A stretch of DNA of 64,000 nt from Prochlorococcus marinus str. MIT 9211. GTDB taxonomy: Bacteria; Cyanobacteriota; Cyanobacteriia; PCC-6307; Cyanobiaceae. Location of the stretch: NCBI RefSeq assembly GCF_000018585.1, contig NC_009976.1, forward strand, positions 925,982 through 989,981. The letters are read 5' to 3'. The stretch's first letter is position 1, and every line of letters starts with the position of its first letter. The translations under genes were made by a program, and so were the position numbers. A model generated the notes under the pieces. It made no database searches. It was not told where the DNA came from and saw only the letters and a program-made list of their open reading frames with translations. Shown here piece by piece: positions 10,624-38,918 of this stretch.

Positions 10624-11514
10624 TTAAGGCAACCAATCAAATTCTGAATAGTCAGGTGACCTTTTCTCCAAGAAAGCATTGCGCCCTTCTTTAGATTCTT
10701 CTGTCCTATAAAACATGTGAGTTGCATGCCCAGCAAGTTCTTGAATACCTGCCAATCCATCTGTCTCCGCATTGAAAGCTGCTTTCAAGCATCTAATTGC
10801 GGTGGGACTGTTTTTTAGTATTTCCTTTGCCCATTTAACACCTTCAGCTTCAAGCTCATGAAGTGGAACAATTGCATTAATGAGTCCCATCCTTAATGCC
10901 TCTTCAGAGCTATATCTACGACACAAAAACCATATTTCACGTGCCTTTCTTTGTCCTACCACTCTAGTTAAATAACCTGCACCAAAACCACCGTCAAAGC
11001 TTCCTACTTTTGGTCCGGTCTGGCCAAAAATTGCGTTATCAGAAGCCAAGCTTAAATCGCATAAAAGATGAAGCACTTGCCCCCCCCCAATTGCATAGCC
11101 AGCAACGAGAGCAATTACTACTTTGGGCATGCTTCTAATAATTCTTTGAAGATCTAGAACATTTAATCGAGGCACCCCTTCTTCATCCATATATCCTCCA
11201 TCACCTCGAACACCCTGGTCCCCTCCGGAACAAAAAGCATAACCTCCATCTGCAGCGGGTCCTACTCCCGTAAATAAAACAACTCCAATATTCTTATCAT
11301 CACGAACATTGGCAAATGCAGTACAAAGTTCCAAAACAGTTTGTGGTCGAAAAGCATTTCGTTTAGAAGGTCTATTAATTGCAATTCGAGCTATTCCATT
11401 TTTGCTTTTATCAAGAAAAATATCCGTAAAGTTGCCACATGGTTGCCAATCAACTGAACTAATGCCAGGCAAAACTTGTCTAGGCATATAATCAGACCCA
11501 TTTTTTTTAGTCAT
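10624..11514 (-). CDS. menB: 1,4-dihydroxy-2-naphthoyl-CoA synthase
   Basis: Crotonase-fold enzyme that closes the naphthoate ring on the way to phylloquinone, the A1 cofactor of photosystem I. 296 residues. Motifs: [67 protein letters not shown], and the C-terminal [15 protein letters not shown] start at 11514. It follows menD by 14 bp, so they are probably one transcript. The three-glycine codon stretch in GYAIGGGQ is written as nine G in a row on the coding strand (11080-11088), in frame and uninterrupted here. Confidence 0.96.
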
Positions 11515-37046: not shown

Positions 37047-37325
37047 ATGAGCAACAAAACTGCGTTGCTAATGCTAATACCTGCAAGCATCATCTCTTAT
37101 CAGCTTATTGCAAGAGCTCAATCTACTCTTCTAGAAAGTGTCAAGAGAAACCCTTTAGAGGCCAAGGCATTATGCAGAAGATTTCGAGATTACAACTCAA
37201 AAGAAATTGAAGCAACTTCAAAAGAAGTAATCACCGAGATAAGTCGAGAAAGAAAACTAAGTCCAGCTGACGCAGAGATACTTTCTATTTATGTAATTGG
37301 CATGCATTGTCCAGATGTGAGATAA
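37047..37325 (+). CDS. Small conserved secreted or anchored protein
   Basis: 92 residues of unknown family. A hydrophobic N-terminus (TALLMLIPASIISYQLIARA) could be a signal peptide or anchor. A short helical region with two Cys (ALCRRF and GMHCPDVR) follows. ATG at 37047 (another ATG lies at 37042 in a different frame). The 3' end overlaps the start of the following hydrolase frame. Compare with the small secreted protein at 62346, which has a similar architecture but no visible sequence similarity. Confidence 0.55.
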   Translation: MSNKTALLMLIPASIISYQLIARAQSTLLESVKRNPLEAKALCRRFRDYNSKEIEATSKEVITEISRERKLSPADAEILSIYVIGMHCPDVR

Positions 37326-38918
37326 ATTTCAAAACTGTGGCTTCAATTACTAATAAAGAGTCAAAACTAGTTCTAAACGATGGTGAAGTGCTTTGGTCAA
37401 GACTTTGGCATCCAAATAATTCAGGGCCCTGGCCAGCTCTTTTAATGCGCCAACCTTATGGGAAAGAAATTGCTTCAACAATCACATACGCACATCCAAC
37501 ATGGTGGGCAAGCAAAGGTTATTTAGTAGTCGTTCAAGACGTTAGAGGGCAAGGAGATTCCTCAGGTGAGTTCGGTGGTTTCTGCCAGGAGCCTTCAGAC
37601 ACATCTCAAACTCACTCCTGGGTAAGGTCTCTTCCAGAGTGCAATGGACGTCTTGGGACCTATGGATTTTCATATCAAGGGCTTACACAGTTACTAGCCA
37701 ATCAGGGGTCTCCTCCTCCTGATTGCATTGCGCCTGCTATGACTGGCCTGGAAGAATGCAACCACTGGTGCTCTGATGGGGGGGGCTTTTTGGTGGCATA
37801 TAGGGCTTGCATGGGGACTCCAATTAGCCGCTCAAAAAGCAAAGCGAAATGGTGACGAGAAAGTCTGGAAAGAGATTAGAAATAGCCTTGAAGATAAAAG
37901 TTACTTACAGGAGGGGCCTGATCTACTTAAAAAATATGATTCAAGAGGAATGGTAAATCAATGGTTTGAAGAATCAAATAAAGCAAACCCAATCTGGAAG
38001 ACTCATAAACCGCTGAAAACTTGGCTCCAACAACCTATCTTGCTAATTGGAGGATGGTGGGACCCTCACCTAAGAGGGATTCTTGATCTTTATGAAAAAT
38101 CACTCATAGTAGGTGGTCAACCAGATCTGCATATTGGACCAGCTTCTCATTTGCGATGGTGGGAAGAAGTACAGCAAATTCATTTAGATTTCTTCAACAA
38201 ATATCTTCAACCAAGCAATACTCTTAAGGTCCCATCTAGCAGACAACAAAAACTTTGGAATATTACAAGCAAAAAATGGTTTGACCTACAACCTATAGAC
38301 ACTAGAAATAGGATTTGGCATCTAAGTACTGGAGGGAATGCATGCATAGATTCAACCGATGGAGAACTTACTCAATTCGGCAAAGGGCAGGGGGAACTCT
38401 CTATTGTTCATGATCCATGGAGACCCGTTTCTTCAATAGGAGGTCACCTAAGTCCAGACCCTGGTATTGCAAATAGAGCCGAAATTGACAAGAGAAACGA
38501 TGTAGCAACTTTTACCTCAAAACCACTTGAAGAAAGAATTCAACTAAAAGGAGTTCCTAAGCTTGAAATTATTGCAATGGCTGATAGGAATGGATTTGAT
38601 CTATGCGTTGCAATTTCAATTATTCAGCAAAATTCAAAAGAAGTACTGCAGATTTCTACAGGAGTACTTCGTCTAGTTGGGAATAAAGCCAAAAGTACAC
38701 TCAAAAGAAATGTGACGCTGCAGCCATTATTCGCAGATATTCATAAAGGAGATCGCCTTAGATTGTCAATATCTGGAGCAGCTTGGCCAGCTATTGCTAT
38801 AAACCCAGGAGACCCAAGTTATAACTGTGGGTCTCCATCTCCATATTGTCTAGTAACGACAATCTCCCTAGAACTTTCTCAGGCCAAGCTAGAGATCTGT
38901 CCACTCTTCTCAAAATAA
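37307..38918 (+). pseudogene. CocE/NonD-type hydrolase, frameshifted at an 8-G run
   Basis: One gene in two frames. 37307-37855 holds the N-terminal catalytic region: GEVLWSRLWHPNNSGPWPALLM, VVVQDVRGQGDSSGEF, and the nucleophile elbow TYGFSYQGL. 37776-38918 continues the same fold: GGAFWWHIGLAWGLQLAAQ, then LLIGGWWDPHLRG, GPASHLRWW and the C-terminal jelly-roll part. The frames meet at the run of eight G (37778-37785); removing one G gives GAT GGG GGG GCT and a continuous protein of about 530 residues. Start uncertain: TTG 37307 or GTG 37337. Family members cleave esters or X-Pro peptides. Possible causes: real mutation, phase variation, transcript slippage or sequencing error. Confidence 0.8.
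37778..37785 (+). repeat. Run of eight G at the hydrolase frame break
   Basis: Homopolymer of eight G within the CocE-like gene, at the exact point where the protein changes frame. Long G runs are rare in this AT-rich sequence. In contingency loci such runs change length by slippage. Here loss of one G, or a +1 ribosomal or polymerase slip, would restore the frame. Confidence 0.7.

Follow-up and report, generated by a model that had tools for sequence, protein, structure and literature searches.

Prochlorococcus MIT9211, a free-living marine cyanobacterium, carries at 37307-38918 of the window (the whole stretch of 64,000 nucleotides analysed here) a gene for a CocE/NonD-type serine hydrolase with Peptidase_S15 and PepX_C domains, and the reading frame of this gene is broken by one base at a run of eight Gs. 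We propose, with a probability of roughly 0.55, that the eighth G entered the MIT9211 reference through a wrong base call or consensus at this homopolymer. The case is an ordinary one-base frameshift in an otherwise healthy hydrolase gene, and the more striking readings of it are unsupported.

Two halves of one hydrolase meet at a G tract

As assembled, the N-terminal frame opens at a TTG codon and runs to a stop at 37855, its last ~24 residues, which lie 3′ of the G run, being out of frame (Table 1). The start codon is uncertain, and may be the TTG at 37307 or a later codon. The C-terminal frame lies one base on, has an ATG at 37776, stays open to 38918, and carries the remainder of the catalytic domain together with the PepX_C beta domain. 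When one G is taken out of the run by script, the joined sequence reads through 536 residues with no stop and aligns end to end with orthologues, which agrees well with the original prediction that deletion of one G would restore a protein of about 530 residues. The claim that the two halves lie in different frames and join exactly at the G run is likewise borne out by the sequence, the profiles and the ortholog alignments.

Profile matches divide at the same place. PF02129 covers the N-terminal part over profile positions 1-145 (E 2.3e-43) and the C-terminal part over positions 140-261, where it is followed by PF08530, so that the match is broken at profile position ~145. TIGR00976 is broken at 141/142 and scores once on each half (122.9 bits for profile positions 5-141 and 103.3 bits for 142-515), both halves exceeding its curated cut-off of 66.3 bits. 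Orthologues from one further genome (G012) and from two genomes of the same genus (G001 and G002) align as single ORFs across the join, following frame 3 of the window from 37779 and, before that, frame 2 as far as about 37789 (for G002, as far as 37843), and for two of the three relatives aligned the frame switch falls between 37779 and 37789. The region is collinear with three relatives, and a comparison of the window genes with three relatives revealed no other broken gene, the hydrolase being the only frame break. A 92-aa ORF at 37047-37325, whose end runs into the beginning of the hydrolase frame, has no Pfam or NCBIfam match.

The Ser-Asp-His triad expected of TIGR00976 members is predicted in the motifs GFSYQG, GGWWD and GPASH, which are spread over two frames; the single continuous reading frame of the family is interrupted in the MIT9211 assembly at the tract. 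The roles of the three residues are assigned from the family, and since the Ser lies in one fragment and the Asp and His in the other, neither fragment as sequenced would form an active site. The closest solved relative is cocaine esterase (1JU3/3IDA; CocE/NonD, TIGR00976), which provides the best PDB matches (E 2e-24) and resembles the MIT9211 hydrolase in the order of its domains, in its nucleophile motif and in having a beta domain at the C terminus, although similarity between the two is low and the MIT9211 gene is interrupted by one base in the assembly.

Table 1. Window coordinates of the hydrolase halves, the G tract and the predicted catalytic residues.
Feature	Position	Strand	Description
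Hydrolase N-terminal part	37307..37855	+	182 aa as sequenced; PF02129, TIGR00976, ortholog alignment
Predicted nucleophile Ser (GFSYQG)	37670..37672	+	Joined-protein residue 122; N-terminal frame; motif and cocaine esterase alignment
Hydrolase C-terminal part	37776..38918	+	380 aa from ATG; other frame; PF02129, PF08530, TIGR00976
G8 tract, where the frames part	37778..37785	+	Falls on the two Gly codons of the conserved [DE]-GGA-[FYH]-WW motif
Predicted catalytic Asp (GGWWD)	38061..38063	+	Joined-protein residue 252; C-terminal frame; motif kept in relatives shown
Predicted catalytic His (GPASH)	38148..38150	+	Joined-protein residue 281; C-terminal frame; motif kept in relatives shown

The gene is conserved across the family and shows no decay

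Of the 197 family genomes with a completeness of 90% or more, 194 have the hydrolase gene, and the full-length matches among those listed are almost all in one open frame. No in-frame stops were found inside the hydrolase of L023, L027 and L080. Those of L016 and L075 were considered as gene damage and rejected, both lying upstream of the conserved start. A search of the MIT9211 genome found no second copy, and the gene is thus single-copy, without a paralogue to replace it.

Both halves are intact, as had been predicted. The joined MIT9211 protein deviates at none of the 120 columns that are invariant in 21 other orthologues (0/49 in the N-terminal half and 0/71 in the C-terminal half of the 22-orthologue set), and most other orthologues deviate at 1-5 invariant columns. 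Relative-rate comparisons of MIT9211 with its nearest relative, L008, using seven outgroups, reveal no excess of changes in either half; in the C-terminal half MIT9211 is not faster than that relative (for example, 33 vs 40, 24 vs 41 and 42 vs 40). The further disabling or relaxed changes that mark a pseudogene are not seen, and the earlier statement that any decay must be recent is upheld by the lack of a further lesion or rate increase. It is possible that the hydrolase is a very recent pseudogene, a status with which the absence of further lesions would be compatible.

The frame-breaking tract is private to the MIT9211 sequence

Run length at this site is set by codon choice at the Gly-Gly pair of the [DE]-GGA-[FYH]-WW motif. 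Most relatives have 2-6 Gs here, in frame, and in most orthologues the run is interrupted by A, C or T through synonymous codons such as GGAGGAGC. Two relatives (L010 and L027) have seven Gs in the correct frame, and in one (L032) a GAG codon just before the site keeps a run of eight in frame. The Cyanobiaceae orthologues (Prochlorococcus/Synechococcus), which reach 62% identity with the MIT9211 hydrolase over the full length, differ from it in being single ORFs with 2-7 Gs at the Gly-Gly pair, or eight in frame. A potential hairpin (CTTTTTGGTGGC / GCCGCTCAAAAAG, 37785-37840) directly follows the G run and could aid polymerase slippage or sequencing trouble.

A pattern search of 400 family genomes found no frame-breaking G8 at the hydrolase gene besides that of MIT9211. 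Pattern matches in 12 other genomes were considered as recurrences and rejected: the ten loci examined have no CocE match, and the matches in G342 and G150, judged from the pattern letters, have the same letters as the examined loci and a continuation unlike the hydrolase site. Given this lack of recurrence among the 400 genomes, the break is private to the MIT9211 sequence as far as the collections show; a close strain of the same species was not found in the collections searched.

We further note that G8 tracts as such are ordinary in MIT9211, as about 11 other G8-G9 tracts sit within long intact ORFs. By pattern search the genome, which is 38% GC, holds about 17 G tracts of G8 or longer; those outside the intact ORFs are intergenic or at gene ends, and only the hydrolase tract breaks a frame. 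The tracts L041, L052, L054, L057, L059 and L060 were considered as further broken genes and rejected, as they read as intergenic or gene-end. Two G8 tracts fall in the window, giving 3 overlapping pattern matches vs 0.58 expected, and 5 of 100 shuffled windows reach as many. G8 tracts are also present in the genomes of relatives. A G9 tract at 11080-11088 on the minus strand lies inside an intact ORF whose motif suggests an enoyl-CoA hydratase/MenB protein. The ~11 intact G8-G9 genes (among L037-L061), some of which presumably resemble KaiB, LipA, TypA and aspartokinase, could be natural slippage controls.

Weighing an assembly error against real frameshifts

An erroneous eighth G is supported by the combination of a near-universal, single-copy, undamaged gene with a lone frame break at a homopolymer. 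In a survey that covered 206,991 frame-transition genes, lone BLAST-validated frameshifts were expected to be sequencing errors and not real indels (PMC3711429). The GeneTack singletons of that survey, from finished genomes, present the same picture as MIT9211, a lone homopolymer frameshift whose two sides are validated by homologues, and nothing material differs between them (PMC3711429). From the frameshift and its position, the intact halves, the uniqueness of the break and the lack of decay, we infer that the extra base is absent from the living strain, which would most likely have seven Gs and make a single enzyme of 536 residues whose active site holds the Ser-Asp-His triad. The original prediction took uniform seven-G reads as evidence against itself; such reads would indeed point to a reference error, a source of frameshifts that its reasoning did not weigh. 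Against an error, the ~11 other G8-G9 tracts in intact frames indicate that the G runs of this assembly are generally read well, and a real, very recent mutation would give the same picture. Such a mutation, a G7 to G8 expansion that inactivated the gene in culture or just before isolation, is a tenable but clearly less probable reading, under which the product would be the 182-aa fragment with the nucleophile Ser and without the Asp or His. The in-frame G7 of L010 and L027 at this site means that a single slippage step would be enough, and strongly selected Prochlorococcus cultures are known to acquire, and be overtaken by, single-base deletions in homopolymers, as in the MED4 UVR mutants, the MED4 genome being otherwise reported as very stable (PMC2955971). 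A recent mutation would require, however, that a gene which nearly every relative has retained was lost without any other lesion.

For the two readings that had been raised before, phase variation and correction by slippage, no positive evidence emerged. A real and fixed G8 from which full-length hydrolase is nevertheless produced, through slippage of RNA polymerase or +1 ribosomal slippage on GGG-GGG, is unlikely, even though this would account for the complete lack of decay. A tRNA-Gly paired with GGG is able to shift its pairing by one base, and a hairpin can be drawn directly 3′ of the run. This hairpin, however, is not stronger than those of dinucleotide shuffles (z -1.2 to +0.6), has no matching counterpart in most relatives, and would have to act in the +1 direction, where a hairpin downstream of the site is not what usually stimulates a shift. 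Transcriptional slippage comes into consideration at roughly eight identical bases, but it is described usually at A or T runs (PMC3711429). The conserved site of a programmed frameshift or of programmed transcriptional slippage is also missing, the orthologues being in frame, and frequent slippage at G8 would harm the intact MIT9211 genes with G8-G9 tracts as well. A search of the literature turned up no transcriptome or proteome of MIT9211 by which the tract question could be decided. Still less probable is a phase-variable switch, in which replication slippage would toggle the tract between G7 and G8 and so produce ON and OFF cells. G8 does fall within the length range where G tracts can slip, and in mid-gene a one-base change would switch the hydrolase product off or on. 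Across species, however, the OFF form is seen in MIT9211 alone among the 400 family genomes, synonymous codons interrupt the run in most relatives, ~11 other MIT9211 genes have equally long tracts in frame, and nothing indicates a surface, phage-receptor or modification role for the predicted hydrolase; a search for literature on cyanobacterial phase variation via homopolymer tracts found nothing relevant. Least credible of all is a split enzyme whose two subunits are each translated on their own. The second ORF would begin at its ATG on the edge of the G run and retains the Asp, the His and the beta domain, but no Shine-Dalgarno-like sequence was seen upstream of this ATG, the first ORF stops 79 bases beyond it, the ATG is formed from bases that read Asp-Gly in relatives, and no relative is split at the site.

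Consequences for annotation

Until the G run has been re-read, MIT9211 should be scored neither as lacking a near-universal hydrolase nor as encoding it in two separate proteins. Only if the G8 were real and the gene working would the case be relevant to how streamlined genomes tolerate frameshifts; slippage on a fixed G8, if true, would then be an instance of rescue at a G tract in a cyanobacterium with such a genome.
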